64,000 nt of DNA, from positions 25,315,001-25,379,000 of the forward strand of contig JASXTE010000005.1 in the NCBI GenBank assembly GCA_030280995.1, given 5' to 3'. Positions within the stretch are counted from its first letter, which is position 1; every line of letters begins with the position of its first letter. This stretch comes from Hemileia vastatrix (taxonomy: Eukaryota > Basidiomycota > Pucciniomycetes > Pucciniales > Zaghouaniaceae). The notes beneath the pieces are model-generated. The model was not told where the DNA came from, did not search any database, and worked only from the letters and a program-made list of their open reading frames with translations. Positions 9,892-51,440 of the stretch are shown piece after piece. The position numbers and the translations under genes are program-made.

Positions 9892-11448
9892 ATGGTTAGG
9901 ATAAATTTATGGAAAGGGAAAATATGCTTTGGAGAAGAGGTAAAGCTAATTTTAGGTATCTTTGAAGCTGATTCTGATGTGGATGGGGCTTCAGACTTTG
10001 ATAAGGTGAAGTAGGTCATATTCTTCATTGATGATATAGAGTTGGTAAAGGAAGTTCTTAGGATGGATAGATATAGCAGCCAGGATTGGGAGAAGCTAAA
10101 GGTGAAGATTATCAGGAGGCTTCCCACTGTGTTTTCAATGGATGATCTTCATGTGATTTCTAGGAAATGGGTATTTCAGGGTGGTGTAACATCTCTAGTG
10201 CAGTATGGTAAATTTATGGAAGAGTTTGAAGAGGTTATGGAGTATCTGGATGAAATGGGTATGTCATCTCATTAAATGGAAGCTAAGTATGTTCTTTGGA
10301 GTGCAATGGGTCTGGAGGTCAGAAAGGAGGCTCAGGAATTTCTTTTAAAGGCTGGGCTCATGAAGACACTTCTAAATGGAAAATGTAGGATTCCTTCTTT
10401 GGGTGTTTTCAAGAAGGCTATCTGGGAACATCTGGAAATCCTGGTCACTAAAGAGGTGGAAACTGAAAATGAATATTTAATGGATAGAAAGGTTCAGGAA
10501 AAGGTTGTGGAAGATTCAGCTTCAGTTGCAATTCTGGAATCACCCACTCTCAAAGACAATGATTTTTGTGATTTTTCAGGAAATGGTAATTCTTTTTCAG
10601 GGGATGTCATAGGATCTCAAGAATGTGCTTCACTGGTTGGTTTGGATATGTACACACTAGATGAAAAGTGTATCTATTCATATGTAGATGGGCTCTGTGG
10701 GAAGAAAAACTTGACAGTTCATGATGAAATGGTTTCTTCATGTTCAGATAATGGTGGTTTAAATAAGGATGTTTCTGTTGAAGTTCTTGATTATCAGAAA
10801 GAGTCAGTGTTGGATTTATTTCTCCTAGAGGAAGATTATTTTCAGTTGATTCCTTCAAGATCAGAAGATGTATGCTTGGAGGAGCATTTCTATTTGGAAG
10901 TTATGGACTCTATTCTGGAGGATTTGTTGGATTCTCAGAGTAATGCTGTACTGAATGATTTGGGGTCTCATACAAAAGAATCTCAGTTAGCTCTCTCAAG
11001 ATCAGATGATTGTTTTTTGGGGGAGAATTATTTATTTGGTGTTCTGGGTCCTGTTTTGGAGGAATTTTTGAAAATTCAGAACAATTTTGTAATGGATGAT
11101 TTGGAGTTGGGGAGAGTAGGATCTCAGATGCTTCACTCAAGTGGAGAAGGTTTTTTCAGTGAGGAAGATAAAATTATTGATGTTTTGGATTTCACTGGTA
11201 TGGATGAGATCATTCTGCACTCTCAGTGGAGGGAAAATAAAGATGTGGTGACTTTTCATTCAATTTCAAATATTGAAAATTTGATGGAAAATGGAAATGA
11301 AATTAGCAGAAAAGCCAGTGTATGGAGAAAGATTGAAAACTTTTTTGGTGGTATTATTATGGGATATCAGAATCGGAAGAGGGGTAAAGATAGTTCTAGC
11401 CCTAGAGGGAAACTTATTTGTTTCAACCAGTGTATTTCAAGAATATGA
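9892..11448 (+). pseudogene. Element C Gag-like protein with a novel repeated acidic C-terminal domain
   Basis: One reading frame runs from ATG 9892 to 11448, broken by TAG at 10012 and TAA at 10273. The first ~190 residues follow element B Gag closely (for example WVFQGGVTSLVQYGKF beside WQAKGGVSSMADFKKL). After that similarity stops: there is no CCHC knuckle and no protease. Instead about 250 acidic residues follow, with a repeat of roughly 46 residues: copies start at SRSEDVCLEEH, SRSDDCFLGEN and SSGEGFFSEED, each followed by a VLD/VMD and an L-E-E/D-L-L helix-like block. I do not recognise this domain. The frame ends beside a copy of the TAAACTGG stem-loop family (11450-11475). Confidence 0.7.
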
Positions 11449-12059
11449 CTCCTCCAAAATGAGGATAAAATACTTAATTGGTTTTTGTGTTGTGTTTTTG
11501 GTTCTTCAGGATCCATCTTCCACTGTCTTTGGTCTGGTTTCTTTTGTTTTAGGTCCTTTCATCATACTCTTTTGGGTTTCAAGGCTCTTTTAAAAAGTTT
11601 GGGTTTCAATATAGATTTTCAATTTATGATAAAGTTAAAAAAAATTGGTATAATGGAAAATATAAATAAAATAAAATAAATAGATAAAGATAAAAGAAAG
11701 GAAAAGAAAATAGGTTTAGTTTTGCCTCCAGCATGAGGATAAACTGCATAATTTAAGAAGAGGTGGTTCTGAAGATGGATCAAGATTTTAAGGTTTAGAA
11801 GATGGAAGTGAAGATGAAGATTCTGATTCTGAAGAGTTTGATGAAGATTTTCCAGTGGTTAGGTCCAGCACAAAAGGTGCTGAAGATGTTTCTTTTCTCC
11901 TCCAAGAGGTTAAAATGGCTGGATCTGATCTTGATTCTGGTGATCCAGATGTTTGCATTGATGAATATGGGGCTGTTGTTTGAGATGGATCAAATTTTGA
12001 AAATGGTGTTTTGTTGGTGAACTGGATTCTCTGAAAATTCAGAAGAAAGAGAAGGATGT
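11449..12059 (+). other. Element C junction: stem-loop motifs and remnant of the RNase H-integrase linker
   Basis: Two stem-loops of the B/C family lie at 11450-11475 (arms TCCTC/GAGGA) and 11725-11747 (CCTC/GAGG followed by ATAAACTGC). From about 11780 an acidic linker similar to element B (DSDSEEFDED, then STKGAED) is readable with stops. In element B this linker follows RNase H, so in C the whole protease-RT-RNase H block is absent between 11448 and this point. Confidence 0.6.
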
Positions 12060-13480
12060 TTCAAAATTTAAAGATTGGTTTCCTGGGTGGGCTGCTCAAT
12101 TGGCTCATGTGAAAGCTGGTGATTTTGATGACAGGGTTGTACTCTTAGATGTTGTTTTGTTGGATTTTGAAGATAGGACCTGGGGTAAGTCTGAGTTTTA
12201 TTCTATTTTGGTGGAACATCTTTTGACCTTAGGGGGGCCAGATAGTTGTGATGATGGAACTTGGTTGGAAATCAAAAATAAAATTCCTGGGTTCTATATT
12301 TCAGGAAGGAGGTTGAAGAGGAGGAGAAATCCAAATACTCATATTGTAGAGACTCAGAAGAAGGGTCAAGAAGTTGTGCTGAAGTTTTTTTATGAAAATC
12401 TTGGTCATAGAGGCTTTGTGGAGACTTATAGAAGACTTGCAGACAGATTTTGGTGGCCTGGCATGAAGTTGGCTGTGCAGGGTTTGGTTCAATCTTGTGA
12501 AGAATTTCAAAGATGAAGTCACTTGAAACCAGAAGTTATTGGCCACGCTACTGGAGAATCAACTGTGTTTGGAAGGGTCAGTCTGGATGCTGTCCATATT
12601 ATAGAGAGAAAGTATAAATATTTGATTTTTGTTAGGGATGATTTTTCTGGTTGGGTTGAGGTAGTGCACCTGGTTAATTTTAATTCTAAAAATGTAGCAG
12701 AATTTTTAAAGAAAGAATGGTGTTATAGATATTGATTGATGAAGTTATTTACTGTTGATGGTGGGCCAGAGTTTTATGCTGAATTCAAGGAAGATGTTGC
12801 TATTATTGGCTCAAAGGTTAGAGTGGCTACAACTTAGTATCTTGAAGCTGAAGGCATGGTTGAAAGGGGTAATAAAGTTACCAAGAATGCTTCAGTGAAG
12901 ATGTGTGGAGATAGTGCTGAAAATTTGAGGCATTATTTACCCTTAGTTTTGTTTTCTGACAGAGTCTCTGTAAAGAGGAAAACTGGCTGCTCTCCATATG
13001 TGCTAATATTTGGACAGAAAGCAGTTTTACCAGTAGAAATGGAAGCATTTTCTTATCTTGGAACTGATTGGGATGATGTGCACTCAACTGAATATTTACT
13101 TTGTGCTAGGATGCAGAAGTTGTAATGTAAAGTGGAATTTCAGGAGAAGGCATACTCTAGATTGATGAAAATTAGAATTCAATCAGTCAGATACTAGGAC
13201 AAGAAGTTGTATCATAGACTCAGAAAACCCTGAAAACCTGGTTGTTTGGTATTGGTATATAATAAAATTTTGGAGAGTCAGTGGGAAAATTGTTTGCTGA
13301 CAGGTGGAGTAGACCTTACAGAGTCAGATATTAGGTTTCTGGAGGTTCTTATGTTTTGGAGGAGCTGGATTGTGTGGTCTTAATGAAAAAAGTGGCTGCT
13401 GATCAATTTAAACAGTTTTATCTAAGGGAAACTAGAAGTGCTGAAGACTTACTCTGCAATGAGGATAAACTATGATCATT
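12060..13480 (+). pseudogene. Element C integrase relic
   Basis: Ty3/gypsy integrase, homologous to 44640-46033 of element B. Visible parts: zinc-finger region NLGHRG ... FWWPGMK ... SCEEF (the last Cys of the HHCC finger is changed to Phe); core with SLDAVHI (first Asp, ~12585), TVDGGPEF (second Asp, ~12755) and MVERG (Glu, ~12856); and a C-terminal region ending at the conserved stem-loop. Stops at 12514, 12733, 12835, 13123 and 13195, with a frameshift after 13250, make it inactive. It is joined to a Gag-like gene with no reverse transcriptase between them. Confidence 0.85.
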
Positions 13481-14395
13481 TTTTTAATTATTTTTGTGGT
13501 TTTGTTTAGTCCACTAGGAATTTAAACTGGAATTTCTTTTGGTCTTCAAGTGCTGGGATCTTTACTGTTTTGGATGTTGTGTTATATGTTAGATGGTACC
13601 CAGAGGGGGGCTTCTAGATTTTATTTTTGCAAGTGTGGGGGTAACTGGTGAGCTGGCTGCTCTGTAGAAAAATTACCCCAAAATTTCTGTTTCAAGCCTT
13701 TGGTTTTTTCCTATTTGAATTATAGTGTTGTTTTTTGTTATTCAGGTTTTCAGTCCTCTATGAATTTTAACCAGCTTGTACTTTCTCTTTAATCTTTGGT
13801 CTCTTTAGATTGGTGGTGGATCACTAGTGGTCTCCCATCATTCTTCCTTATTGGAGGGAGCGCACCCAGTTATCTTTTCTTTGAACTGGACATGGCTTTT
13901 CATTTTCATTTTCATTTTGTTATTTGGTGTTATGAGTGTGGTTTTAGATTATTTTTGTTTTTATCTTATTTTTTCTTTTGATTTTTTATGGAGGTTATTA
14001 AGATAAAAGAGGTGAAAGAATTATAAACAATATATATTGATGTAACCACATCAGGGTCACCTGCATGTGGGCAATCATAGGTGGGAAAAGGCTCATAAAT
14101 TGGCCAGACAATGCTACTTTCTTTAATCTTATTATTTATTATTAGTCATCTCTTTTTTATTTATTTTACTCACTTTTATATTTTATTTTATTTTATCTCA
14201 AATTATTTAAAAATAATTTAAAGGTGTATCTACATCAAGGCACACTTGGATGTGGGAAAGGTATCAGGGGATCAGCTCATTAATTGGCTGGGGGATACCA
14301 TTTGTATTTATTTTATTTTCATTTTCATTTTTCCAATCTCTCAGAAAATTGGGCATTATAAATTTTATGTATTTCAATTTATATATATATATAGT
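13451..14395 (+). ncRNA. Element C structured 3' region, first part
   Basis: Non-coding but conserved with element B. It holds stem-loop copies at 13451-13472 and 13508-13531 and a worn one at 13752-13774, a long hairpin at 13638-13679 (GGGGTAACTG arm), a paired block near 13815-13875, and two copies of the CCACATC-type double hairpin (14046-14119 and 14230-14299). In copy 2 the paired arms are GGTATC/GATACC and AGC/GCT, where element B has GATGTC/GGCATC and GGC/GCC. Calling it a functional RNA is an inference from these compensatory changes. Confidence 0.5.
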
Positions 14396-14630: not shown

Positions 14631-17600
14631 TTAAAAATCAGAATAGCTGCTGGCTATATTTTTTAATGATATCATACAACAAGTATTTGAGAAAACATTT
14701 GCAAAACCACTAGGATGTGTAGTTTTTGAAACATGACCAATAATTTCCTTGCTATTCATAACTACTTTTTTTGACCATTTATCATAACACCAAAAAACAT
14801 TAAGCCCAGCTTTTAAATAAGGATTTTCAATTTTAGGATCCACAATGTCATATAAGCCAACTAAAATAAAATTTTGACCTGAAAATGTTGTTGACTGCCA
14901 CATTTTCAATATAACCCCAACAACATTTCCTTTTGATGAATTTACCTCAACATTGCTATTTCCTTGATTTGTTGAATATAATGAGTAGTTTTTTCCATCC
15001 AGTAACAAGTTATCTACTTCAATAATTTGAGGTGATAGAATTTGAGATGAAACAGATGGTTGATTTTTTGTAAAAATACTGGAAAATATTTTTTTACCAT
15101 CAATCATGTTGAGATACTCTATCCAAAATTCATAGTCTTCACACAGTAGTTGAGATGATTTTGAGGGAATTTTTCTTTTCTCTGAACTGAAGACATTTTT
15201 CATTTCATTCTCAAATCAATCATTAGTTCTGTCCATTAATGATTGAAGCTGACCGGTCAAAATAAACCTTTTCATAATGGTCTTGTCCATTTGATCTTTA
15301 AAAAAAATGAAATTAATAAAGTTAAGTAGCTTTAATTAAGGAAAACATACATGTTTTCTTATTGTTTGGAATGGAGCTTAACATTCCATTTATACGCTTG
15401 TGGACCCATGCTGCAGTTGATGGTGCAGGCCCAAATCTTCTTAGAACTTCAGGAAAATGTTGTGCTAAGTGGATGTTTGGCTTTATATTGATATCTGGCC
15501 AAAATTCCTTAAGACACTTCATATAATCTTTTAACTGACCTTGAAGAGATGAAATTTGAGCTTCACCTATCTCCAAGGAAGTCAGAATATTGATTATTGA
15601 AACCAGCAGTGAAAGACATTTAATCAACTTCTTCTCTCGTGCGTCAGAATTTTCAATAGCCCAAACTGGTATCAAAGCTGCCACATAGTAAATTTTACAT
15701 AGTACAAACCATTCAGCAGCTTTAAAATTTGTACCAGCCTCTCCTAGACTACTAGGAACACGGGTTAGCCATGAAGGTGTCTTAGTATTGTGGATACAGG
15801 TTTGAACAATTAACAATTCACTCGATTGTAGACACAAATTATCTGTTGATGCATCTGGTCTTTGTGCTGGTTTCAAAGTGACTTTGGGTCTTGATAAATC
15901 TGAATATTTCTGAAAGGTGTGATCTACAAAAATATTTTGAGATACAATTTTCATCTAATAATAGCTCATTTTAACTTACTTGAACTGGAAAAATTGGATC
16001 TAGAATCATTTTCATCCAAACAGATATCTTTAGGAAGTTGATTGTGACTTTTTGATGGACCAGCCGTTTTTACTTTCTTGACCTGCTCATGAAAACTATC
16101 TTGATGAGAAGGTTTACATTTAAAATTTTTTTGCAGAGGTAGAAGTACACAAACAGAACTTTTTGATTTATTAGATTTTCTCAAAGGCTGAGAGGATTAA
16201 TAAGGGTAAGAAGGAGACTTTGATTTTTTCTTTTCAGTTGAAAAAGAATATATGAAATTACTAGAGGCACTAGAAAATGAATTTTGGCTTGATATGGAAG
16301 GATTTGGATTGAAATCATTAAAGCCTCTTTTTGATCTATTTTTCTTTTGTTTTTGAATTCTTTCTCCAGCCACATGTATCTGAAGGTACATTTTGTGAAA
16401 GTCCTTTGCCATTCCAAGGAGTAAGCAGTGCATCAACTCAATTTCAACAAATGAAATTGGTTTCAAATATGGAAGCTGAAGAAGTGATGAATATCGTAAA
16501 CCTTTACTCTCCAAGATTTCTTTCCTTTCTTGTGCACTGGAAGCAGTTTTCCATTTGAGAGCGTATGTGCGATGGTGAGAATCAGTCCGAGAAAGAAATT
16601 CAGAAGGAGTTTTGCCAGATTTCAGTTCCTCCTTTGAAATGTAGCAAAAATGGCATGGAATGTTAGAGCTATAGCTGGAAAATCCTGAAAGCTTCTGGAT
16701 AGCTGGAAGATTGCCAATCAAAGGAAATATCGCTGCATGGATTAACCGTCCATTTGGGTGATTATAAGTCTTGGAGAAAAAACATCCTTTCCACAAGGCA
16801 AGAAGTTCGTCCAAAAGTGGTGTAATAACATGATTACAATGGTCCAAACTGGGTTCATGAGGCCCAGGTGTAATTCCGGCCAAAAAGACATGTTGCTTTT
16901 TATATCGTAAATGAGGTGGGAGATTGAGACAAATCAGTATGATTGAACCAAATGATACCTTATTATGACCACCAATTTAGTTCCCAAATGGATTAAACCA
17001 ATCCATATACAAACTAAAAACCAAATTCCCACTTTTTTTTGTAAAATAACCTCCACTAGAATCTTTAAATTCTTTCCACACTGACCCATCCCATACGTCA
17101 CACATTTTTCCACGTGTCTGACGTGGTCTTCTCAAAGAAGTGTCGAGATCATCCTCAAATCCAGGAAGAAGTAGAAGACGTGCAAGCCAAGATATAAGGG
17201 ACTGAGTTTTATAAGTTTGTGCTGGTAAGGATTTATTATTTTTCACTTTGAACAAGGGGTAGTTGCATATCAGCAAATCTTCATCCTTCTTAGGAATGGG
17301 ATTTAGTAGAAGTTGTTTGCAGTGACTATGATCATAGTTGTACTCATTGACTGATTTGAAAGGTTGATGAAAGCAATTTGGACAACAGAGTAACTTTTTT
17401 AAAGGGGCTTCGAGATTAAGTCTCTGGATAATTGTGTATATATTGTGCGGAAGTAATTGAGATTCTTGTTCAAAACTAGCAGGATTTCCAAAACTTCTGG
17501 AAATTAGTTGAATTTTGAAAAATTCAGCTTTAATTCTTATTTCAATTTGGTCCCTAGATAGGTTTTGTACCAAGTGGCCATAAGCAATTTCAATGAGGGT

Positions 17601-33860: not shown

Positions 33861-33976
33861 CAAAACAGAAAAGAGGTTAGAAAAAGGCCAATGTTGGAGT
33901 GGAAGTTAGAATATAAAGATAACAAGGAAATTTTATCATGATACATGCAACAAGGAGACTTTCAAAATTGTTGGAC

Positions 33977-34378
33977 AATCCATCAAGACTTTAAACTGAA
34001 AATTTTTGGGCAGTCCATCAAGACTTTAAACTAAAAATGGTTGGATAGTCCCCCAAGACTATAAACTAAGGAATTGGAAACTGGTGAGTCCTTCAAGACT
34101 ATAAAATGGTATTTTGTTGGTATTTATTTGGCAGAGGGCATCCAAGGGAGGAGTCTCTGAACTTATTTAAGGCAAGTGTGGGGGTAACTGATGAGCTGGC
34201 TTCTCTGTAGAACAGTTACCCCAGAATTTTAGTTTATTTCTCTGAGTCTTTAATGGTTTGATCTCTTGTTCTGTCTTATGATTTAGGTTTTGTGTCCCCC
34301 AAGATTATAAACTGAGGGTTTTGGGTCACCCAAGACTATAAAATGAGGGCTGTTAGCCCCCCAATACTGTAAACTGAG
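33977..34378 (+). ncRNA. Element C stem-loop array with long hairpin
   Basis: Seven copies of the B/C stem-loop family at about 33977, 34012, 34046, 34087, 34293, 34324 and 34354 surround a long hairpin at 34181-34222 (perfect 10-bp arms GGGGTAACTG/CAGTTACCCC). The clearest copies have arms AGTC/GACT (34012, 34087) and TAGTC/GACTA (34046) with 6-nt loops, followed by TAAACT or TAAAATGG. The last copy is worn. Confidence 0.6.
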
Positions 34379-37855: not shown

Positions 37856-39009
37856 TGTGGTAGCCTAAAGTTTAGTACGGCACCTAAATATGTAAATGGA
37901 GTTATTACGGAGTGCAAGATTGGCGTTATTATTTTTTTTATATAAAAGGGTTTTATTTAATTTATTGGAGTTTAAAATAAGAAGAAATTGGTCACGAGCG
38001 AATGCCTACACAAATACAATTTATTTTGCGGAGAAAACTTATTTTTATGGTCTAAAAAATTTATAAGTATCAAGTCAAGTCACTCAAGAACCTTGGGAAA
38101 TTTTCCCAGAATTTTTACTATTTTTCTTATATTTTTAAATGAATTTTAAAGTTTTATAGAAATATTTACGTTTTCAAAAATTACTTAACTTTGATGAATT
38201 TTCACGGGGTAATTAGAGCCGCGCAGACTACCAAAATTCGTTTGGTAGGTAAAGGGGAAGTAGCTCTATTATGTGTAATTTTTCTAGATTTTTTATTATG
38301 GTTTTAAGGTTCTAAATTGAGTCCGGAAGTCCGGACGGACTCCGCTTTGACTCCGCTTTGACTCCATACGGACTCCGTACGGACTCCGTTCCGGCTCCGT
38401 ACGGACTCCGTACGGGCTCCGGATTGACTCTGGAAGAGCTCTGGAGGGGAAAACTTAGGCATGTGACTAGGAATACTTAAGCGCTTCTCAAACTCGAAAT
38501 TGAGGGGGGGAACACATCATACAGCTTAATCTTTAACCACCACAGTCTCATTTTTTACTCAACAAATTAAAATAACTTGTAATACCCTTATAACATTATT
38601 ATTTTTACATAACATTTTAGAAATACAATTCAACAGTTTAAATAACACTTCATATAGGGTATCTTTAGAAAGGTCTTCATCGCTGGGACTTGATTATTGC
38701 TGTCTCATAAAAATTCAAATTATTATAAAAACATAAAAGTCAATCTTTTCAGATCTTTCACTGGTACACCTTAATTGTTGTTATCAGTATTTCTTTATCA
38801 ACAGCCACTTTCTTTAAATCTCAATAAGCGTTAATTATTTTAGAGTTTCATTATTTTTATCAATCAGATCTAAGTAGATTGGTTAGCTTAGTGATTTAGA
38901 ACACCTACTTTGTTATTTTTATTGGAAGGACGGGGTTTTCAGCTAAATCCATATATCTCCTCCGGATTCTGCTTACAGCAAGGCGACTGTAAGAGTTTAC
39001 CTTACCATA
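37856..39009 (+). repeat. Element B 5' LTR
   Basis: About 1.15 kb, TGTGG to ACCATA (or ACCA, depending on where the edge is drawn). It differs from the 3' LTR by about nine substitutions and by extra copies of a 12-bp GACTCCGTACGG-type repeat at about 38331-38430, making it about 32 bp longer. Confidence 0.9.
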
Positions 39010-39011
39010 GT

Positions 39012-39028
39012 TGGCGCCCAACATGGGG
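39012..39028 (+). other. Primer-binding site of element B
   Basis: TGGCGCCCAACATGGGG lies just after the 5' LTR; the leading TGG fits a tRNA CCA end. The equivalent site in element C is at 9521-9536. The tRNA was not assigned. Confidence 0.7.
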
Positions 39029-39185
39029 TACAATTTCTCTAGCTTTCTTTAAAGACTTACTTGGATCAAGAACGTTATTAGCCTGCAAGAGGCTTATTTT
39101 CTGGAACTCTAATTGGATTTTTGTTATTGGCATGCAAGAGGCTTGTTATTTTATCGATTGTTAACGCTTTTCATTACTTATTGGG

Positions 39186-41795
39186 ATGTCTTCTTCTGCT
39201 GTTGCTTCTGGATCTTCTAACCCTCTTACTCCCTCAGTTAGAATTGTTTCTTGGGATGGCCCAAAGTTTGATGGGGAGGAGGTTAAATGGTTCATTAGCA
39301 GGTATGAAGCTGATGCTGCTGTTGATGGTGCTTCTCATGTGGATATGGTGAAGCAAGTTAGATTTTTTATTGCCGATAGGGAGGTGGAAAAAGAGGTTAT
39401 TGCTATGCAGGCATTCAAGGACAAGGATTGGGTTAAGCTTTCTAAAGCTATGGTTGATAGATGGGGTGTTAGGTTTACTATGATGGACCTCAATAAAATT
39501 GTTGGAGACTGGCAAGCAAAAGGTGGTGTTTCTTCTATGGCTGACTTCAAAAAGCTCTGTGTTCAGTTTGATGAAGTGGTGGAATATCTCATACTGGTGG
39601 ACAAGTTAGTGCATGAGAACCAAGCAAAAGATTTGTTTTGGACAGCATGCAGCAGGGATATTCGTATGGACGTCTTGAAGGATCTTTCAAGAAAAGATTT
39701 GATGAAGGAACTGCCTAATGGTGAGCAGAAACTGCCGGCTCTGGAGGTTATCAAAGAGAACATTCAGGCCCATCTCAAGTTATTGGCATTGGACAAATAT
39801 CAAGAGTCTTGCACTCAATATGTTAGCAAGGTTAGCAAGGTTTTGGCCAAAAACAACGATATTATGGTCAAAGCCCAGGAGGCCAAGAAGGCTCAAATGG
39901 GATTACCTGCTGCTAAAGTTGAGGGTAATGTAGATAATAAGATGGTCGATCACCTGGCCAATTTAACTAAACAATTAAAAATATTTGTTCAAGAAACCCA
40001 GAAGGCCAACAAGGCCCCAATCGCTTCTTCGTTGACGTCGACTTCTTATCAGTCTAGAGGTTATGAACGTCGAAATTATAATGGCAATAACAACGGTAAC
40101 CGCTTCCCAGGCAATGGGAGAAATGGTGGGAATGGTGGTAATGGATATAGAGGTGGCTATGATGAGCCAAAGGTGTGCTCCTATTGTAATAGGAGAGGGC
40201 ACAGAGCAACAGTTTGTTTTGCTCTTGATAAGGATATGGATGCTGGGCGAGTTTTATTTGATGGTAAAGTTTATAAATTTCCCAATGGTTCGTTCATCAA
40301 GCCCAGTGATGGACAGTCTCCTTCTGATTTGGTCAGAAGAAGTTTAACGGCTGAAAGGAGAGCCAGATTTGAAGAGGTGACGGATGAAGATGTTAATGCC
40401 AAGGGTGGCAAAAATGGTAATGGTAATGGTGGTAAAGCTGACAAGGGCAAGGAGAAAGAGGTCAGTAAAGCCACATTTTCTACTTTTTTTGGAGGTTTAG
40501 AGCTGGCGACGGTTGCCCAGGTGGAGGGTAGCTGTATGGCTGGCGAATACGATGTTAATGCTGCTAGAAGAGCAGCTGCTACTAAGGCGAAAAGTAGCAT
40601 TCAGAGCCAATTGAGGGCTAATCCTGGCAAGGCCAATAACAAAGTGAACCCTTACTCTAAGGACAAGAATTCTAGTGCTCAAACTGCCGCCAACAAATTG
40701 AACCCTTACTCTAAGGACGAATTATATAAAATGCAGAAGGGGATTGCTGATATGGGGCCCCCTAGTTATGGCAAGTTTGATTTAAATGGTGAGCCTATGC
40801 CAGATGATGATTCGGATTCTGAGGAGGACGTACCGTTGGCGTCTCTACCCAGACCAAGTTTTAGCGGTCCCATCCCAATGGAGGGAGTAAGAAGGACTAG
40901 CGATGGATCAGGATTAGTGCAAGAAGCTGGTGACAGAGTTAGGGTTATAGAAAGTGAAGATGTTATAATGGGGGGTGAAGATAGCTCGGTTGGACCTCAA
41001 GAGGTACCCAGGGCCAAGGTTGTTAAATCAAAGGTCCAGTATGAGCGGCCAGTAGTTTCTGGTCAAGCTAATGCGATGGACGCAGTTTTGAATAGGGTGA
41101 ATCAACTGCAGATTCCCTTATCTTTGGGGGAGTTATTTACGATTAGTCCGGCGCTTGCTGAAAAGCAAAAGAAGCATTTGACGAGGCGTCGGGTTTCCAC
41201 TGGAGAGGTGGAATATATTTGTGAAAATGCTGAAAAGTTTGGGGAAGATGTAGATACACATTTTTCCGCTCCCCTGGGTTACCTGGTGGTAACTCTAAAT
41301 GGTAAAGAAGTAAAGGCCTTGGTCGATTCAGGGTCTCAAATTAATTTAATTTCATTGGAGCAAGCGACGAGTATAGGCTTGCCAATTAAAAGTGGAACTG
41401 GGGGAAACCTCAGAGGTATTGGAGGGCATGCAACAGAGCTGATGGGTACTGCTGAGCATGTCAGGTTAGGCATTGGTGGATCTGTTGGTAAGGTTCACTT
41501 TTATGTGGCCAGAGGAGCAGTCAAAACTGTTCTTGGTGGTCCTTTTTTGATGGATTTTGAGGCCAGGATAGGGTATCAAGCTGGCATGGGGATTAGTTTG
41601 GAGATCACTGGTGAAGATATGCGGAGGTTACATATGCGGTTAGCACCTCCTGGAGATGAAGGTTGGGAAACACGGCCAGGGATTACTACACTGTGCCAGT
41701 GTTGTGTTTGCACCAAGAAGCGGCATATTAAACGGACGGCTTCTGGTGAATTATGTTTGTTGGAAGGGGATGAATGCCCTCATTTTTTGGGGTAG
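39186..41795 (+). CDS. Element B Gag-protease polyprotein (869 aa)
   Basis: Intact frame from ATG 39186. The N-terminal ~220 residues are a helical Gag region (FDGEEVKWFISRYEADAAVD, then LPNGEQKLPALEVIKENIQ). A Gly/Asn/Arg-rich stretch leads to one CCHC knuckle at residues 331-344 (C-x2-C-x4-H-x4-C, CSYCNRRGHRATVC). An acidic linker follows, then a retropepsin-type protease whose catalytic triad is DSG at residue 714 (VDSGSQINLISLE) with a flap-like G-I-G-G and later VLGGPFLMDF. The frame ends at TAG 41793 after a Cys-rich tail (CQCCVCTKKRH). Pol is in another frame with a gap between. It makes the particle protein and the enzyme that processes it. Confidence 0.9.
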   Translation: MSSSAVASGSSNPLTPSVRIVSWDGPKFDGEEVKWFISRYEADAAVDGASHVDMVKQVRFFIADREVEKEVIAMQAFKDKDWVKLSKAMVDRWGVRFTMMDLNKIVGDWQAKGGVSSMADFKKLCVQFDEVVEYLILVDKLVHENQAKDLFWTACSRDIRMDVLKDLSRKDLMKELPNGEQKLPALEVIKENIQAHLKLLALDKYQESCTQYVSKVSKVLAKNNDIMVKAQEAKKAQMGLPAAKVEGNVDNKMVDHLANLTKQLKIFVQETQKANKAPIASSLTSTSYQSRGYERRNYNGNNNGNRFPGNGRNGGNGGNGYRGGYDEPKVCSYCNRRGHRATVCFALDKDMDAGRVLFDGKVYKFPNGSFIKPSDGQSPSDLVRRSLTAERRARFEEVTDEDVNAKGGKNGNGNGGKADKGKEKEVSKATFSTFFGGLELATVAQVEGSCMAGEYDVNAARRAAATKAKSSIQSQLRANPGKANNKVNPYSKDKNSSAQTAANKLNPYSKDELYKMQKGIADMGPPSYGKFDLNGEPMPDDDSDSEEDVPLASLPRPSFSGPIPMEGVRRTSDGSGLVQEAGDRVRVIESEDVIMGGEDSSVGPQEVPRAKVVKSKVQYERPVVSGQANAMDAVLNRVNQLQIPLSLGELFTISPALAEKQKKHLTRRRVSTGEVEYICENAEKFGEDVDTHFSAPLGYLVVTLNGKEVKALVDSGSQINLISLEQATSIGLPIKSGTGGNLRGIGGHATELMGTAEHVRLGIGGSVGKVHFYVARGAVKTVLGGPFLMDFEARIGYQAGMGISLEITGEDMRRLHMRLAPPGDEGWETRPGITTLCQCCVCTKKRHIKRTASGELCLLEGDECPHFLG

Positions 41796-41851
41796 CAGGG
41801 GCTGATCACTCTAATGTTGTAATCTCTCCTCAGGATGAGATCCCGGATTGA

Positions 41852-44800
41852 AATAGGTCAGCTCACTTGGAGATAATTCAAGTGGATTCTCAATTATTTT
41901 CTGTTAATATTACTTTGGAGTGCAAATACGTTATGGACTTTTCTATATGTTTATTGGATTTACCCTGTTTTTCTATTAAATTTAAAAACGGTGAAAAAGG
42001 CAAAATGGGCCAAATTAGGTTGGATAAAAATTGGAAGGGTATGTTTATGGACCTCCAGCAAGAGGGTAAACTGCAAAAATTACATCAAAACTCGATTAAA
42101 AATCTCAGTATAAGTAAAACACAAAAAAATAACTTATGTGAAAATGTTATTCGGGACCTCCAGCAAGAGGTTAAACTGCAATTATCTCCTTCTATTACGG
42201 ACCTCCAGCAAGAGGGTAAACTGCAAATATCACATCAAAATCGGATAAAAAATCTCAGTATAATTAAAACCCAAAAAAATAATTTTTGTGAAAATTCAAT
42301 TCCGGTCCTCCAGCAAGAGGGTAAACTGCCAACTTTCTTTACGGGTGATTTACTGTTGGATAAGGGAAGAAAAGGTGTTGGAAAATCTGTTTATAAATTA
42401 GACGAGGGAAAGGAGAAAAGGGTAAAATTTAAAAATGAAATAAAATATTTTTATAATTTTTCTTATTCTGATTCTGGCGATGAAGAAGATTCATTTGATG
42501 AGAGTTTTAATGGCGATGTTTTACCTCAAGTTAATTTAGATGTGGACGCAGCCAAATATAAGAAAGTAGCAAATAAAGTTCGACCTATTAATGAACCGCT
42601 AACTGCTGAATTAAATCCACCTTTGAGAAGACCAAGGTTATCAAGAGATCCTTATGAAAGTCCCTTGGTAAAGAATCCGCCTGAATTTTCTGAGACGTCA
42701 AGAATCACTTTTGAGAGACTGGGTGTTGTTAATTTTGGACCTGATGGTTGGTTGTCTGGAGAAGAGAAGAAGTTGTTGTTGGATGTGATGGTCAAGCGAG
42801 AGAAGGCCATTGCTTTTGTAGAAGAGGAGAGGGGTGTGTTGAAGCATTCCTATGGGGAGCCTTACAAGATTCCTGTGGTATGTCATGAACCGTGGCAGCA
42901 GAAACCGATTCCTATTCCAGCTGCATTGAAAGAAGCTTATATCGAAGTTGTCAGAGAACGGATATGCACTGGACTGTATGAGCAATCAACGTCAAGTTAT
43001 TCTAGTCCAGTATTTTGTATCAAGAAACCGAATGGCAAGCTTAGAGTTGTTCATGATCTTAGGGAATTAAATAGGGTTACAATAAAGGATGCTGGGATAC
43101 CGCCTAGTGCTGAGGAGTTTTTTGAAGCGTTTGCAGGGAGAGTGTGTTATGGTTTGGGAGATATTATGGGTGGATATGATGAGAGAGAGTTACATCCGGA
43201 CTCAAGGCCTCTCACTACATTCGATACACCACTTGGACGTTTACAGTTAACAAGATTACCTCAAGGAGCAACAAATTCGGTTGCAGTTTATCAAGCTCAG
43301 ATGGCTTGGATCCTTCAAGATGAAATTCCACAATATGCTGGAATCTTTATAGATGATGGAGGAATTAAGGGACCAACAACCGACTATGATAACCAGGTGT
43401 TGGAAGAGAATCCCGGGATACGCAAATTCATTTGGGAGTTTGCAATTACTTTAGAAAGAATCTTGTTTCGAATTGAAGAGGCTGGTTTAACTATTTCAGG
43501 TTCAAAATTTTCATGTTGTGTGCCAGCCTTAGAAATATTAGGCCATGTGGTATGTAGAGAGGGTAGGAGTATGTCCAAGAAGAAAGTTAACAAAATTCAG
43601 CCCTGGCCAAGACCCAAGAATACGACCGAAGTTAGAGGGTTTTTAGGCGTTTGCGTATATGTTAGAATGTTTATCAAGGACTTTTTTTCATTGGCAGCTC
43701 CATTGAGACGGTTAACGAGAAAGGATGCAGACTGGGAGTGGGATGAAGAGTGTGAGAAGGCGTTTGTGAAGTTGAAGGAGGTTGTAGGGAAGGATTTAGT
43801 CCTGCACAAGTTGGATTATGGAAAAGGAGCTGGCAGAATTTATTTAGCAGTTGATTCAAGTCAGGTTGCAGCTGGGGCGGTTTTGTCTCAGATGGATAAA
43901 GCTGGTTACATCAGGCCAGTTAGGTATGAATCTGTAGTATTTACTGAGTTCGAATCAAGATATTCTCAACCAAAATTGGAATTATGTGGTGTGGCAAAAA
44001 TACTGAATAAACTTCAGCATATTTTGTGGGGGCAACATTTTGAGTTGCAAGTGGATGCGAAATCGTTAATCCAGATGATTAATTCCCCAAGTTTACCGAA
44101 CGCACCCATGACGAGATGGGTAGATTTTATTCAACATTTTTCATTTGATTTAGTTCATAAGCCTGGCAAGACTTTTACTATGCCAGATGGTTTATCAAGA
44201 AGACCACCCACTGAAGAAGATTCAGACTCAGAAGAGTTCGATGAAGATATACCTATTATCAAAGCCAGCACTAAAGGAGCTGAAGACTTTCCATACCTCC
44301 CCCATGAGGTTAAACTGGCAGGACTATTGTGTTTAGATTATGATGATGATGACCTCCACCAAGAGGATAAACTGGAAAATAGTTTTTATGTTAATAAAGG
44401 TGTTGGAAAAGGTGTAGATAAATTCGGCAGAGAGGAGGTAGAAGAAGATGTGGTGTATGTAGAGGAAAATGGATTGGTAGTGTGGGATAGTAGTAAATTA
44501 AGGAATGGTGTATATGTTGGAGAATTAGAGAATTTAAATAAAAGGGTGGATAAAGAGAAAGAGGTATTTTCAAATACGGTTTTCAAAGGATCCAAAGGTT
44601 CAGAAGTAAAACGTCGACATAGCTCGATTAAAGATTTATTTAGGGGTCAACAATTATTGGCTCATTCATGTGCAGGTGATATTGGTGATAGAGAAGTCCC
44701 TATTGATGTTATATTAATCAATTTTCAAGATGAAGTCTGGGGTCAGACTGGTTTTTATTTTTTGTTAGTCAAATATTTGTTGACTTTAGAGAGGCCAGAA

Positions 44801-46033
44801 GATTGTGAAGACAATCAATGGGTGGCTATCAAGAGGAAGTCATCTACGTTTTACCTATCTGGTCGACGTTTAATGAGGAGGAGGTATCCAAATCCTCAAG
44901 TAGTTATAACTCAACAGAAGGGGCAAGAATTAGTTTTGAAATCACTGCATGAAGATCTCGGGCATAGAGGCGTTGGAGAAACATTTAGAAGAATTTCTGA
45001 TTGATTTTGGTGTCCTGGCATGAAGATGGCTGTTAAACAGTGGGTTCAGTCATGCAAAGAATGTCAAAGACAAAGTTATTTAAGGCCAAAAGAACCTGGA
45101 CGCGCGACCGGTGAATATACGCTCTTTGGAAGAGTTAGTTTAGATGCCGTTCATATAAAAGAGGGACGGTATAAATATTTAATTGTGGCCAGAGATGATT
45201 TATCTGGTTGGGTAGATGCAGCCCCTCTTATTAATTTAACTGCCAAAAATGTGGCAGAATTTTTTTTGAATAATTGGGTATATAGGTATGGGGTGATGAA
45301 GTTGGTGACAGTAGATGGAGGTCCTGAATTTGGGACAGAGTTTAAAGAGGCCGTATTGAAAGTTGGATCAAAGGTTAGGGTAGCGACCCCATATTATCCT
45401 GAAGCTGAAGGCATGGTTGAAAGAGGGCATCAAGTTATTAAGGATGCTTTAGTTAAAATGTGTGGGACAAGTGCCAAAAAGTAGAGGCACTATTTACCTT
45501 TAGTTTTATTTGCTGATCGAATCACTGCCAAAAGGACGACCGGATTTTCACCTTATGAACTTGTTTTTGGACAGAAAGCAGTTTTACCGGTTGATTTAGA
45601 AGCTGAATCATATCTTGGAGTTGACTGGGACACAGTCAAAACTACTGAAGAATTATTGTGTGCAAGAATGATGCAGCTAGAAAAGAAAGAAGAATATTTA
45701 GAAAAGGCATATTCGCGGATGATGAAGATCCGAAATCAATCAGTCAAATATTGGGATGAGCGGTTGGCACATCGATTAAGGAAACCTTTGAACCCAGGAG
45801 ATATGGTCCTGGTGTATAATAGGAGTTTGGAAAGTCAATGGGGAAAGATGTTTGCAGATAGGTGGAATGGACCGTATAAAATCAAGGAGCAAGTTTCCGG
45901 CGGTTCATATGTGCTAGAAGAGTTGGATGGAGTAGTATTAAAGAAGAGGGTAGCGGCCGATCAAGTGAAACGGTTCTATCCTAGAGGCACCAGGAGTGCC
46001 GAAGTCTTCCTCCGCAATGAGGATAAACTATGA
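41852..46033 (+). pseudogene. Element B Pol (reverse transcriptase, RNase H, integrase), two in-frame stops
   Basis: One frame is open from 41852 to 46033 apart from TGA at 45002 and TAG at 45482. There is no obvious ATG near its start. Residue numbers count from TTG 41867. The N-terminal ~200 residues are element-specific and hold two ~105-bp tandem units (DLQQEGKLQ...). RT: LPQGATNS and the catalytic FIDD at residues 494-497. RNase H: AVDSSQVAAGAVLSQ (~663) and ELCGVAKIL. Integrase: HHCC finger (LHEDLGHRG ... SCKECQ), core Asp at 45142 (SLDAVHI), Asp at 45314 (TVDGGPEF) and Glu at 45419 (MVERGHQ), spaced about 35 residues as in D,D-35-E. The TGA replaces an Arg codon seen in C (RFWWPGM); a CGA to TGA change would explain it. 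Little else is damaged. Confidence 0.9.
42051..42330 (+). repeat. Tandem units in Pol N-terminus carrying stem-loop motifs
   Basis: Two direct units (about 42050-42155 and 42199-42305) are highly similar and are joined by a shorter one. Each begins with the stem-loop ACCTC-CAGCAA-GAGG followed by GTAAACTGC, translated DLQQEGKLQ; a fourth motif lies at 42307-42330. All four copies use the same reading frame. Confidence 0.8.
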
Positions 46034-47023
46034 TATCAATGAAACTTTATGGATACCTCCGCAATGAGGATAAACTATGACATTTATGAAATTATATGGA
46101 CGAACTCCGAAATGAGGATAAACTACAATTTTAATGACTTTTATTAAATTTATACCTCCGCAACGAGGATAAAATATCTTCTTTTTTTTATCAAAATACT
46201 TCACTATCGTTACACTGTATATGGACAACGAAACTGTGATGAAACATAACAAAATGCAAGAAAACCTTCATTGAAAATTTTCAAAATTAAAAATTCTTAA
46301 AATATTGGTGAAGATAGTGTTGGAAAATTTTTAAAATTTATTGGAAGAAGTGTTCACAGGGGAACCTTCTTAATTTAATATTGGCAAGTGTGGGGGTAAT
46401 TGATGGGCTGGCTGCTCTATACACAATTACCCCATAATGTTCGTTTCCAAAATTTTCCCTGTTTCTAGTTGAATCCTGGCTTTGTCTTTTAATTTTAGGA
46501 AGTCCACTAAGACTATAAACTGGAACGAATCAAGAGACACCGCTCTCAACGCCGGATTCAAGATTTTTTTATTTTATTTTGTTTTTGATTTTTTTATGTC
46601 AGATTGTGATTTATTTTCTTTAATATATATTATGAATTATTGTAAAGGTGATGCTCACTGGTGGTCTCTAATCATTTTTATAAATTGGAGGGAGCCCACC
46701 CAGTGATCATCATTATAAAAATTATCTTCTAAAAACTTTCATTTAATTTCTTTTCTTTTCAATTTCTCAAAATTGTGTAACCACATCAAGTTGCACTTGG
46801 ATGTGGGTATGATGTCGAGGGTACGGCTCATCAAATGGCCGGGGGGCATCTTTTATAATTTTATTTTGAAATTTTTTTTTATTACTTTTTTATCTTTCTT
46901 TTCACATTCGTTTATCTTTCTTAAAAAATTAAATTTTAACTTTTATTTCAAAACTATCTTTTTTAAACTCTTTTATTTTAAAGTAAAAAAAAAATTAAAA
47001 AAAAAAAAAAAAAATTAAAATTA

Positions 47024-47056
<33 letters not shown>

Positions 47057-48500
47057 TAAATAAAATAAATAAAATAATTATAAAAAAAAAATAAAAATAA
47101 AATAATAAAAAAAAAAAAATTAATTAATTAAACCAAAATTATTATATTTCTTAGTTTTATTTTTCAGTCTTCATTCTTTTTAGTTTTATTCATTTAGTTT
47201 AGACAGGAAACAGGGTCTAGGGGAACTCAATACCTATGGGATTTTACTTCAAGACATCTGTTAGTCCTCCAAGACTTTAAACTGGCTACTGTTCAAGACT
47301 TTCCTTAAGGTTTTATACGAATTTTGGAGCTGTTAGTCCTCCAAGACTTTAAACTGGCTAATTTTCAAGACTATCGTTAAAATTTTTTTTATTGGATTTG
47401 TTAGGTCCACCAAGACCTTAAACTGGAGTGTTATCAAATTTTAGGTCCACCAAGACCTTAAACTGGACTGTTATCAAGCTGTTGGGTCCACCATGACCTT
47501 AAACTGGATTTCTTATCGATTAAATGTTTGGTCCACCATGACTTTAAACTGGTAGTTCATTCATTGTTTAGTCCACTATGACTTTAAACTGGAAAATTAA
47601 TATCTGCAGGATAATTCAACATTCATTGGACCACTATGGCCTTATACTGGATTACTTGTCGATCAAATGTTTGGTCCACTATGACATTAAACTGGATTAT
47701 CAAATTTATTCAATCTTTGGTCAAGCCTAGGCCTTACTTAGGAATATATCAAGATATTTATGCACTTAAACGATCTTTGGTCCACCAAGACCATAAACTG
47801 GCAATCGATTATATGTTTGGTCTACCAAGACTTTAAATTGGAATGTCAATCTTGTTTGGATAACTCAATTCAATCTTTTAATTTATCACTTTCCCCTAAG
47901 ACTCTAAACTGGTTATTCAATTATTTCTGGAATTGGGTGCTGATAGCTTTAGGAGGTTAAAACTTTAGGTGGTGATGATGCTAAAGAAAGCATAATGGTT
48001 AATTAGGTGAAATTTGTGGCGCTTTAACATGGTCGAAAGTTAAAATTATTATTGGAAGCCTGGCAAAAGTATTTTATGGGTTTGCTGTATAGCAAAGTTT
48101 GAAAATTGTGATGAAGGAATCAGAAGTTAGGATGGTAGTTGGATTTTAGGGAATGATTTTTTTTAGTGCCTCATAGTTAGGCCATTTTTTTTTGGTGTGA
48201 AGCCTGGAGGACCTTATGGCGAGATTGGAATCATAGAATTCGGCTCAGTGGGGGGCCCTATGAGGTTGGAATCAGGAGTATTCGGCTCATAGGAAGATCC
48301 ACTCTCTCAATGCTGTGACAAGAAGGAAGACTGGTATATGGGAGTCTGAAGGGATTCAAACCTTGCTCTCAGTAGTGGAATCATCACAAGATTTATATTA
48401 TTTTATTTTATGTTATATCAGGCCAGAGAAGAAAGAAAACATCATTTATGTTGAAAGTTTAAGAAGACCAAGCAAAAACAAAATTTTATCAAGTTATACT
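46009..48500 (+). ncRNA. Element B structured 3' region with stem-loop array
   Basis: No coding region is recognised. From the last Pol codons (46008-46030) to about 47912 lie some 17 copies of the stem-loop family: four CCTC/GAGG-type at 46008-46175, AGTC/GACT at 46501-46523, and twelve in the array 47263-47911 (at 47263, 47335, 47403, 47443, 47485, 47530, 47570, 47628, 47673, 47778, 47819, 47889). Two long hairpins (46393-46433 and 46791-46850) and a 12-bp stem (46650-46711) are shared with element C. 46860-47150 is A/T simple sequence. 47950-48500 holds duplicated TTGGAATCA...TTCGGCTCA strings (48217-48282). Whether it acts as RNA is an inference. Confidence 0.6.
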
Positions 48501-48501
48501 G

Positions 48502-49193
48502 TTAGAAAAGATAATTTCTTTGAAATTGTTCAACATCATTATCAAAGCTTTGCACTAAAATCCTTCTTTTCATGAGGTCTTCATGGTTATTAGCTGGAGT
48601 TTCTTGAAAATAGGCCAGCATTTTTCGTTTCAACTCATTAGTAAAGTCAAGAAAAAGATAGCGATGAAAATTTGGGTAATGATTGATATAGTCCGTCTTC
48701 ACTCTACCAACATCATCAGTGTTTGTTATTTCGACAGCTAGAAGTTCAAATATGTTATTAAGTCATAGGTTTAGTCAATTTTGATTAAAAGTTTTTTTAG
48801 TAAGATAAATAGGGTCTTACATTTAGAGCCAGGAAGCATAGTCTCAGAAAAGTTAGTTGGGGGTACTAGCGTTATAGGATTAGGATCTTGTGAAGGCAAA
48901 ATTAGGCCGGGATCCGTTGATGAAGATTGAACTTTTGAAGCTGTTTTTGATCTTATTCGTTTTAAGAAGACAGGAATTTTGGATCGCTTTTTAGAAGTTG
49001 AGGGATCAGGGAGAGCTGCTGGTCCTAAATATACGTTTGTTTTAGAAGGAACTATTGGCCGGTTGCATTTGACTTTTTTCACATGGCATAAGTCGCAAGC
49101 TGTTCTGCCAGGAAGATTAGGGTTGGACATTAAACAAGGTACCTGGTATCGAGCGCAGAGTTCACATGGAGCGACAAGTTCTTTGGAAGACAT
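48502..49193 (-). CDS. Element B antisense spliced gene, Zn2Cys6-like protein (202 aa)
   Basis: Two exons on the strand opposite to gag-pol: 49193-48821 and 48737-48502, with an 83-bp intron (GTAAGA...TTCTAG) whose removal keeps the frame (609 nt including stop). The protein starts MSSKEL and carries C-x2-C-x6-C-x12-C-x2-C-x6-C at residues ~10-45 (CELCARYQVPC ... CDLCHVKKVKC), the spacing of fungal binuclear zinc clusters that bind DNA. A Ser/Pro/Lys-rich linker follows, then a helical C-terminal part (NFHRYLFLDFTNELKRKMLAYF). It lies just inside the 3' LTR, so its promoter may be in the 3' LTR or its antisense strand. A decayed homologue sits at the same place in element C. Likely role: an element-encoded regulator (inference). 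The reading frame is intact although Pol is broken. Confidence 0.7.
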
Positions 49194-49316
49194 ATTGATG
49201 AAGATGAATTTTATAGTTGATTAAAGAAGATGGTGGTTGAAGGTTAAAGATGAATATTGTGTTCAACCACTTATGCAAAGTTTTAAGAATGGGGACATTC
49301 TCGATTGGAGGGAGGA

Positions 49317-50438
49317 TGTGGTAGCCTAAAGTTTAGTACGGCACCTAAATATGTAAATGGAGTTATTACGGCGTGCAAGATTGGTGTTATTATTTTTTTT
49401 ATATAAAAGGGTTTTATTTAATTTATTGGAGTTTAAAATAAGAAGAAATTGGTCACGAGCGAATGCCTACACAAATACAATTTATTTTGCGGAGAAAACT
49501 TATTTTTATGGTCTAAAAAATTTATAAGTATCAAGTCAAGTCACTCAAGAACCTTGGGAAATTTTCCCAGAATTTTTACTATTTTTCTTATATTTTTAAA
49601 TGAATTTTAAAGTTTTATAGAAATATTTACGTTTTCAAAAATTACTTAACTTTGATGAATTTTCACGGGGTAATTAGAGCTGCGCAGACTACGAAAATTC
49701 GTTTGGTAGGTAAAGGGGAAGTAGCTCTATTATGTGTAATTTTTCTAGACTTTTTATTATGGTTTTAAGGTTCTAAATTGAGTCCGGAAGTCCGGACGGA
49801 CTCCGCTTTGACTCCATACGGACTCCGTACGGACTCCGTACGGGCTCCGGATTGACTCTGGAAGAGCTCTGGAGGGGAAAACTTAGGCATGTGACTAGGA
49901 ATACTTAAGCGCTTCTCAAACTCGAAATTGAGGGGGGGGAACACATCATACAGCTTAATCTTTAACCACCACAGTCTCATTTTTTACTCAACAAATTAAA
50001 ATAACTTGTAATACCCTTATAACATTATTATTTTTACATAACATTTTAGAAATACAATTCAACAGTTTAAATAACACTTCATATAGGGTATCTTTAGAAA
50101 GGTCTTCATCGCTGGGACTTGATTATTGCTGTCTCATAAAAATTCAAATTATTATAAAAACATAAAAGTCAATCTTTTCAGATCTTTCACTGGTACACCT
50201 TAATTGTTGTTATCAGTATTTCTTTATCAACAGCCACTTTCTTTAAATCTCAATAAGCGTTAAATATTTTAGAGTTTCATTATTTTTATTAATCCGATCC
50301 AAGTAGATTGGTTAGCTTAGTGATTTAGAACACCTACTTTGTTATTTTTATTGGAAGGACGGGGTTTTCAGCTAAATCCATATATCTCCTCCGGATTCTG
50401 CTTACAGCAAGGCGACTGTAAGAGTTTACCTTACCATA
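49317..50438 (+). repeat. Element B 3' LTR
   Basis: About 1.12 kb, nearly identical to 37856-39009; the 12-bp GACTCCGTACGG-type repeats are fewer (about 49797-49850). It is preceded by the purine tract GGAGGGAGGA. Confidence 0.9.
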
Positions 50439-51440
50439 ATGGCAAGTCAACATCATTGATGACTCATTTTAATTTGTAAACCCCATCCCCCCATTTTGAT
50501 GTTTCAGTATAAAAATTAAAAAAAAGTGGAGATTTATTTTACATGACTGATCATTGTTGGGGTGGTGGTGGTGGTTTTGGTGGTGTGGAATAAAGATGGA
50601 AGTATGGAAGGAGGGGTTTTTTATGGGTATATTAGTATTTATATGTGGTGTTGTGTTGTGTTGTGTTGTGTTGTGTTGTGTTGTGTTGTGTTGTGTTGTG
50701 TTGTGTTGTGTTGTGTTGTGTTGTGTTGTGTTGTGTTGTGTTGTGTTGTGTTGTGTTGTGTTGTGTTGTGTTGTGTTGTGTTGTGTTGTGTTGTGTTGTG
50801 TTGTGTTGTGTTGTGTTGTGTTCTGTTGTGTTGTTTTGTGTTGTGTTTTGTTGTGTTTTGTTGTGTTGTGTTGTGTTGTGTTGTGTTGTGTGATGAAGTT
50901 TCATCATTTTTTATATGTGACTCCTCCTCCTCCTCCCCCTCCTCCTCTTCTTCTTATTCCATACCTTTTTCATTTTCACATTGCTGTACTGTGCTGTGTC
51001 AAAAAAAAGGAAAAAAAAGAGTTGGTCTTTTGGAGCTTAGCTCTATTGATTTCACCCCTTTGTTAATGGACATCACTGCTCATTTTGGTAAAATCTGTTC
51101 AGTATATGAAACAGTGAGTTAAAAGGGTTAAAAAGGCATAAATAATCATTATTTGATGGTCTACTTTATGTCCTAAATTGAAAATAGATATTTTCTTGCC
51201 ATCTCCATGATAAATCAAATTGATCTTCATCTTTTAAATGATCTTATGGATTTGACATCATGGGAGATATAAAAATTAGAAACAAATAATTCTCAATCAA
51301 ATAACATGAAGAAGTCTATTTCTACACCTTAGAAAACATTGGCTTTATCAACAGAAGCCTTGATGTCTTTTTTTCTTGAAATGCCTGACCACACCATTGA
51401 AGAGGTTTCCAAAATAAATGTATCCTGAGTGAATTATCAT
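50439..51440. other. Flank of element B around the microsatellite, no gene
   Basis: Apart from the GTGTT array, the sequence has no recognisable gene. It may continue the element A LTR that B interrupted, but no alignment could be made. Confidence 0.4.
50648..50891. repeat. (GTGTT)n microsatellite
   Basis: A pure pentanucleotide array to about 50821 (about 35 units) followed by a slightly interrupted part to 50891, about 48 units in all. The long Cys/Val/Leu frames read through it are artefacts of the repeat. A CTC-rich run follows at 50922-50950. Confidence 0.95.

Follow-up and report, generated by a model that had tools for sequence, protein, structure and literature searches.

The 64,000-nucleotide stretch of Hemileia vastatrix DNA analyzed here (assembly GCA_030280995.1, contig JASXTE010000005.1, positions 25,315,001 to 25,379,000 of the forward strand; hereafter, the window) harbours a long terminal repeat (LTR) retrotransposon, designated Z (37856..50438, + strand), which carries multiple copies of a short stem-loop unit. 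The LTRs of Z are 96.3% identical and ATGG flanks the element on both sides. Since LTR ends, a target duplication, Pfam domains and the order protease, reverse transcriptase, RNase H, integrase were all present, Z was assigned to the Ty3/gypsy group. Its first open reading frame (ORF1, 39186..41795, + strand) encodes an aspartyl protease toward the C-terminus (PF13650, E 1.1e-9; PF13975, E 2.2e-8); the N-terminal part yielded no gag match in Pfam and, judging by its position, probably corresponds to gag. The pol frame (41852..46033, + strand) comprises reverse transcriptase, RNase H and integrase (PF00078, PF17917, PF17919, PF00665) and ends with a stop codon at 46031. Two further stretches, X, a decayed relative of Z whose pol part is approximately 70% identical to that of Z, and Y, another decayed stretch that resembles X and Z only near a hairpin box, also contain the unit.

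A total of 36 units were identified in the window, 23 of them within Z, six in X and seven in Y. All lie on the + strand, the same as the pol genes, in line with the proposal of a first-pass annotation that a paired element acts in the sense RNA of a retroelement. A weight matrix trained on 31 units and applied with a score threshold of 12 retrieved 36 sites on the + strand (31 by construction and five new) and one on the – strand. Further, the string CCNNNANGANNNTAAACTGG had 33 matches with up to two mismatches, compared to a mean of 1.62 and a maximum of five in 100 shuffles. That annotation had described an array of about 12 stem-loops with six-nucleotide loops, variable spacing and an invariant tail. 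Twelve units were indeed found at 47260..47912 (+ strand), each with a six-nucleotide loop and with start-to-start distances of 40–106 nucleotides; the array is, however, only one block of the 36-unit set, and the tail is nearly rather than strictly invariant, as 10 of the 12 units end exactly in TAAACTGG, while those at 47625 and 47816 read TATACTGG and TAAATTGG, respectively.

The remaining units of Z, also on the + strand, comprise four in-frame pol units at 42049, 42154, 42199 and 42304 (42049..42329; loop CAGCAA, tail TAAACTGC), two in-frame units at 44293 and 44350 (44293..44375) in the linker between RNase H and integrase, four units at 46006, 46053, 46101 and 46152 (46006..46177; loops CGCAAT, CGCAAT, CGAAAT and CGCAAC) that resemble the viral RNA coremin described below, and a lone unit at 46498..46523 which, like those of the array, combines C or U in the loop with G in the tail. 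Unit 46006 extends into the pol stop codon and the other three coremin-type units lie behind it. Seven units of Z are thus in frame within pol, sharing a single frame (7/7) and encoding LxxE[GVD]KL; in the other 16 of 23, located outside pol, the core is conserved and the spacers have diverged. Larger blocks have also been duplicated locally. The units of X are located at 11448, 11722, 11893, 13448, 13505 and 13749 (11448..13774, + strand) and those of Y at 33974, 34009, 34044, 34084, 34290, 34321 and 34352 (33974..34377, + strand). When Z and X were compared, the unit at the end of pol was identical at 24 of 26 positions, a level matched by 2.3% of 1058 pol windows, and unit 44293 at 20 of 26, which is unremarkable against a mean of 18.5; X lacks counterparts of units 44350, 46053 and 46101.

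With regard to the fold, each unit has a stem of 4 bp (alignment columns 4–7 with 14–17), whose pairs form in 31, 32, 34 and 35 of the 36 units, respectively. The arm of 4–5 nucleotides initially reported therefore holds at four, as a fifth pair forms in just 12 of 36. Three arm types coexist (AGTC, GGTC and CCTC), with GTC or CTC as the inner triplet and A, G, C or T at the adjacent position. In addition, loop bases 3–5 can form a short helix with the final three bases of the tail (CCA with UGG, GCA with UGC), so that the tail is more than an invariant flank. In Z, 19 of 23 units form the whole 4-bp stem, and the loop–tail helix is fully formed in all 19 units that lack G at the second loop position (loop G2). 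Re-pairing the halves of the Z units (20 distinct rows, 20000 trials) gave 0/20000 for the stem and p 0.0004 for the loop–tail helix, and G-U outnumbered A-C combinations by seven to zero in the Z cells, as expected for pairing in sense RNA. A descriptor of the loop–tail fold recovered 21 sites on the + strand and none on the – strand (null mean 0.375); one of them, at 11158, lies outside the 36 units and is unlike them. A frameshift-type pseudoknot was also considered and dropped, as no slippery site was apparent by eye before the pol units.

Covariation across all units of the window (33 distinct rows) exceeded that of shuffled alignments on three of five measures. The combined structure left 86.6% of cells paired compared to 70.5% after shuffling, the covariation score was 0.357 compared to 0.138 (neither value was attained in 500 shuffles), and slid versions of the combined structure scored lower. 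However, pairs in which both sides had changed were no more numerous than in the shuffles (4 vs. 3.9), and the same was true of pair types (11 vs. 11.1). In a 24-row set of our own choosing, which excluded near copies as well as any unit carrying loop G2, 91.1% of cells were paired compared to 79.9% after shuffling.

A described counterpart of this design exists, contrary to the initial statement that none was known. Coremin, also termed xrRNA_C, is an exoribonuclease-resistant RNA (xrRNA) known from benyviruses, cucumoviruses, hypoviruses, chrysoviruses and others (PMC10520033, PMC5869530). It consists of a 4-bp hairpin with a loop of the form YGAD or YGNNAD, a spacer with UAAACUA and a second hairpin, and its core was published as GUCCGAAGACGUUAAACUAC (PMC10520033). 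According to the same report, the C and U of the spacer are essential, loops CGCAAU and CGAAAU stalled the exoribonuclease Xrn1 in the context of beet necrotic yellow vein virus (BNYVV), and loops without G2 (CAGAAA, CAAGAA, CAAAGA and CCGAAA) did not; the block takes place in vitro without other proteins, motifs are found within coding regions as well as near stop codons, some viral cases have weak second hairpins, and the structure was described as unsolved in 2023 (PMC10520033). Coremin acts in the sense orientation only, and gives rise to an Xrn1-dependent stable RNA in yeast (PMC5869530).

A strict descriptor of the hexaloop form of coremin detected four sites in the window, three in Z and one in X, compared to a mean of 0.05 and a maximum of one in 40 resampled windows. 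Only units 46006 and 46053 (CGCAAT), 46101 (CGAAAT) and 13448 (TGCAAT) conform to YGNNAD. On sequence grounds, the published coremin rules are thus matched by three units of Z, whereas 46152 (CGCAAC) departs from them at the last loop base and should not work. The essential spacer bases are kept throughout most of the set, the U being conserved in 35 of 36 units and the C in 31; A after the CU of the tail is confined to the coremin-type units and a few decayed copies. Loop G2 coincided with a tail ending in A plus pyrimidine in 5/5 units compared to 1/31 of the others (Fisher 1.6e-5, relatedness ignored). The other 19 units of Z, with C or U at loop position 4 and G in the tail, make up a second subclass. 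The likeness to coremin therefore comprises the 4-bp hairpin, the YGNNAD loop at four sites, the UAAACUA spacer, the sense-only orientation and the presence of copies within a coding frame and at a stop codon. On the other hand, viral coremin requires a second hairpin that is not evident in the window units, and the window has 23 copies within one retrotransposon, most of whose loops lack G2 and show the swap to loop C/U and tail G. No Rfam family was found in the whole window, and the 11 Rfam matches within 45900–48000 were all under the gathering score.

The coremin hexaloop motif also recurs outside the window, in IMG/VR contigs (L001-L112), which we judge from their length and source to be mostly those of DNA phages, and in bacterial genomes (L113-L157). 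A first IMG/VR query, which prescribed the stem, loop CGCAAT and TAAACT but not the fourth stem pair, yielded 68 matches spread over 67 stretches. In the 43 that remained once near copies had been removed, the next tail base was A in 43/43, the one following was free, and the fourth pair formed in 40/43, compared to approximately 38% expected from base composition (62% A+T assumed). A candidate G9-Y26 pair in coremin-type units was dropped, since these 43 sites show no fixed base directly behind UAAACUA. A second query prescribed the tail TAAACTAC and let three loop bases vary; of its 69 matches 45 were kept, 43 of them with G2, and the fourth pair formed in 41 of these 43 and in both others. 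The second subclass recurs in IMG/VR contigs too: a third query, with loop C4 and tail G fixed, returned 18 matches (17 different), with the fourth pair in 16 of 18. The patterns CCA/TGG and GCA/TGC gave no matches in IMG/VR contigs. In genome contigs, the first query form matched 46 times in 45 stretches (18 from spirochaetes, 21 from Bacillota, four from candidate phyla radiation bacteria, one from Endomicrobiellum and one from Sulfurovum); 37 matches were kept, with the fourth pair in 26. A search of 34 motif loci (15 + 19) with Rfam detected only tRNA and tmRNA, and nothing at the motif. No protein relatives of Z pol were confirmed in the IMG/VR or genome contigs.

The motif, its two subclasses, the single orientation and the pairing can be read directly from the DNA, and we consider it probable that the units of Z form a coremin-type array that blocks 5'-3' decay of the element RNA. 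As the units resemble a fold that plant viruses use against an RNA-degrading enzyme, the element may protect its own RNA likewise. The 4-bp hairpin would be locked by contacts between its six-base loop and the UAAACU(A/G) tail that follows directly on the 3' side, and the locked fold would halt an enzyme degrading RNA from the 5' end. Some 23 such folds, spread over pol and the 3' region, might then stop Xrn1-type decay at many points, shielding the RNA downstream or, alternatively, leaving stable 3' fragments as in viruses. That the second subclass also blocks nucleases and that the element benefits are extensions of this reasoning; reverse transcriptase, arriving from the 3' side, would presumably not be blocked. 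In yeast, Ty3 RNA gathers in processing bodies, and deletion of Xrn1 raises the level of Ty3 RNA and lowers packaging and complementary DNA (PMC4589538); a retrotransposon carrying numerous folds of the coremin type could transit these RNA-decay bodies without losing its RNA. If so, resistance to 5'-3' decay would not be confined to RNA viruses. The natural swap from loop G/tail A to loop C/tail G offers a direct test of coremin folding.

A broader proposal, which we put forward only tentatively, is that a retrotransposon RNA is armed with a two-type exoribonuclease-blocking array and that the same minimal fold constitutes a widespread, undescribed leader element of phages and bacteria that blocks RNase J; RNA viruses, phages, bacteria and retroelements would then have a single device against 5'-3' decay in common. 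Flaviviral xrRNAs, which impose a directional block on 5'-3' exonucleases, include one that halts bacterial RNase J1 in vitro (PMC5760640). The units share with them only this proposed outcome; the flaviviral fold differs by its description, being a ring-forming arrangement of several helices (PMC5760640). In the open-access literature, no paper joining coremin with a retrotransposon was found, neither Xrn1-resistant nor exoribonuclease-resistant appeared with transposon among the matches listed, the one paper examined for xrRNA and retrotransposon has xrRNA in its reference list only, and no title among the matches listed for RNase J1, xrRNA and bacteriophage reports such a phage motif.

Several results weigh against a coremin-type array. 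The co-varying arms claimed for the 12-unit array (10 distinct rows) did not rise above shuffles: the 4-bp stem plus loop–tail helix reached 94.3% vs. 93.4%, a value attained by 201/500 shuffles, and a 5-bp stem 78.0% vs. 75.5%, attained by 123/500. Since the units go back to a small number of ancestors and shuffle tests take no account of descent, all such counts overstate independence. G-U and A-C combinations are nearly balanced over the 36 units (12 vs. 10), the decayed X and Y together retain the loop–tail helix in 5/12 units without loop G2, and isolated hairpins are weak (mean –2.4 kcal/mol). The third loop–tail pair (column 10 with column 26) stood at chance in the IMG/VR contigs (8/18) and was dropped as a general rule. 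Loop G2 is missing from 31 of 36 units (19 of 23 in Z), and the search for a second hairpin, which showed no clear one behind most units, gave a mean best energy of –0.45 compared to –0.25 (standard deviation 0.13), as low in 5.5% of 200 shuffles. Finally, the pol of this copy of Z is interrupted by two stops, at 45002 and 45482. From the interpretation initially offered, the paired element in sense RNA is retained, while array covariation, a 5-bp stem and the lack of a described counterpart are not; the roles suggested there in packaging, dimerisation and Gag binding would be rivals of a nuclease block.

Among other explanations, a coremin-like fold that serves as a binding or packaging site for Gag or a host RNA-binding protein, rather than as a nuclease block, is unlikely but the most probable of these: multiple copies in a single orientation would suit it, and known protein partners of coremin include a viral silencing suppressor and plant DRB4 (PMC13431473), although the closest known match works as a nuclease block in vitro with no other protein (PMC10520033). 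It is improbable that the units are an ordinary, functionless minisatellite whose arm changes reflect drift. Local block duplications and the array's failure to exceed shuffles speak for such a repeat; however, the core has outlasted its spacers, the pol-end unit is well kept between Z and X, and the motif occurs with pairing stems in unrelated contigs.

Slightly less credible still is a DNA-level array of spaced palindromes bound by a dimer of a Zn2Cys6-like protein. The 3.3-kb interval between pol and the 3' LTR of Z does include an antisense ORF with a Zn2Cys6-like start (48771..49220, – strand; PF00172, E 2.4e-5), and plant Retand elements, also Ty3/gypsy, combine a long pol-3' LTR region and tandem arrays with antisense ORFs that possibly encode DNA-binding proteins (PMC11963269). 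Their repeats, however, are family-specific tandem arrays for which the part of that account drawn on here describes no RNA fold, and their antisense domain is TRP28 rather than Zn2Cys6-like (PMC11963269). Further, the Pfam match spans 15 of 39 profile positions and a search for homologues of the ORF found none. Instead of one conserved half-site, the units combine inner GTC and CTC and three arm types whose arms vary together, and they conserve a non-palindromic tail in a single orientation. Least credible of all is a protein-level repeat, in which the units persist on account of the LxxE[GVD]KL encoded in pol, their non-coding copies being functionless duplicates: the common frame of 7/7 pol copies and the block duplications fit, but most Z units lie outside pol with their cores kept, the first Leu is CTC in 7/7 pol copies (which are related) vs. 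9% of 166 Leu codons, and L..[EDT].KL occurs in 7 of the first 60 of 120 relatives in contexts unlike the units by eye.

These relatives of Z pol, the best 120 of 410 matches, bear mostly the names Puccinia, Austropuccinia and Phenoliferia at the top, and two come from a metagenome-assembled genome labelled Sphingobacteriaceae; a rust-type fungus is the likely host on this showing. The anchor preceding the RNase H-integrase linker was present in 23 of 50 listed relatives, whose linkers appeared by eye much shorter than that of Z.

With regard to the bacterial and phage loci, 15 spirochaete sites remained after deduplication, and in 10 of them the motif is followed at a distance of 11–18 nucleotides by a start codon with a Shine-Dalgarno-like site. 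A scan of 50 loci for tRNAs placed the motif 1–3 nucleotides behind a tRNA or tRNA-like gene in four (L030, 4698 and 4803; L004, 12515; L023, 1947; L086, 5355), as if guarding the RNA end left by tRNA excision.

Several other features of the window were also recorded. The hairpin box, GTGTGGGGGTAAYTGATG...TTACCCC, occurs at 46383-46434, 34164 and 13628, the copies of X and Z being identical at 45 of 52 positions. A polypurine tract was read from the sequence ahead of the 3' LTR (49307..49316, + strand), and a second polypurine-like tract, ATTGGAGGGAG, lies within Z at 46685. A further frame, absent from the ORF list, spans 48502-48762. Outside Z, an ORF at 16197-16883 (– strand) showed a weak match to Transposase_21 (E 1.1e-4, 21.9 bits; Pfam cut-off 28.6), and a TGTTG-type short tandem repeat occupies 50649-50891, directly downstream of Z.
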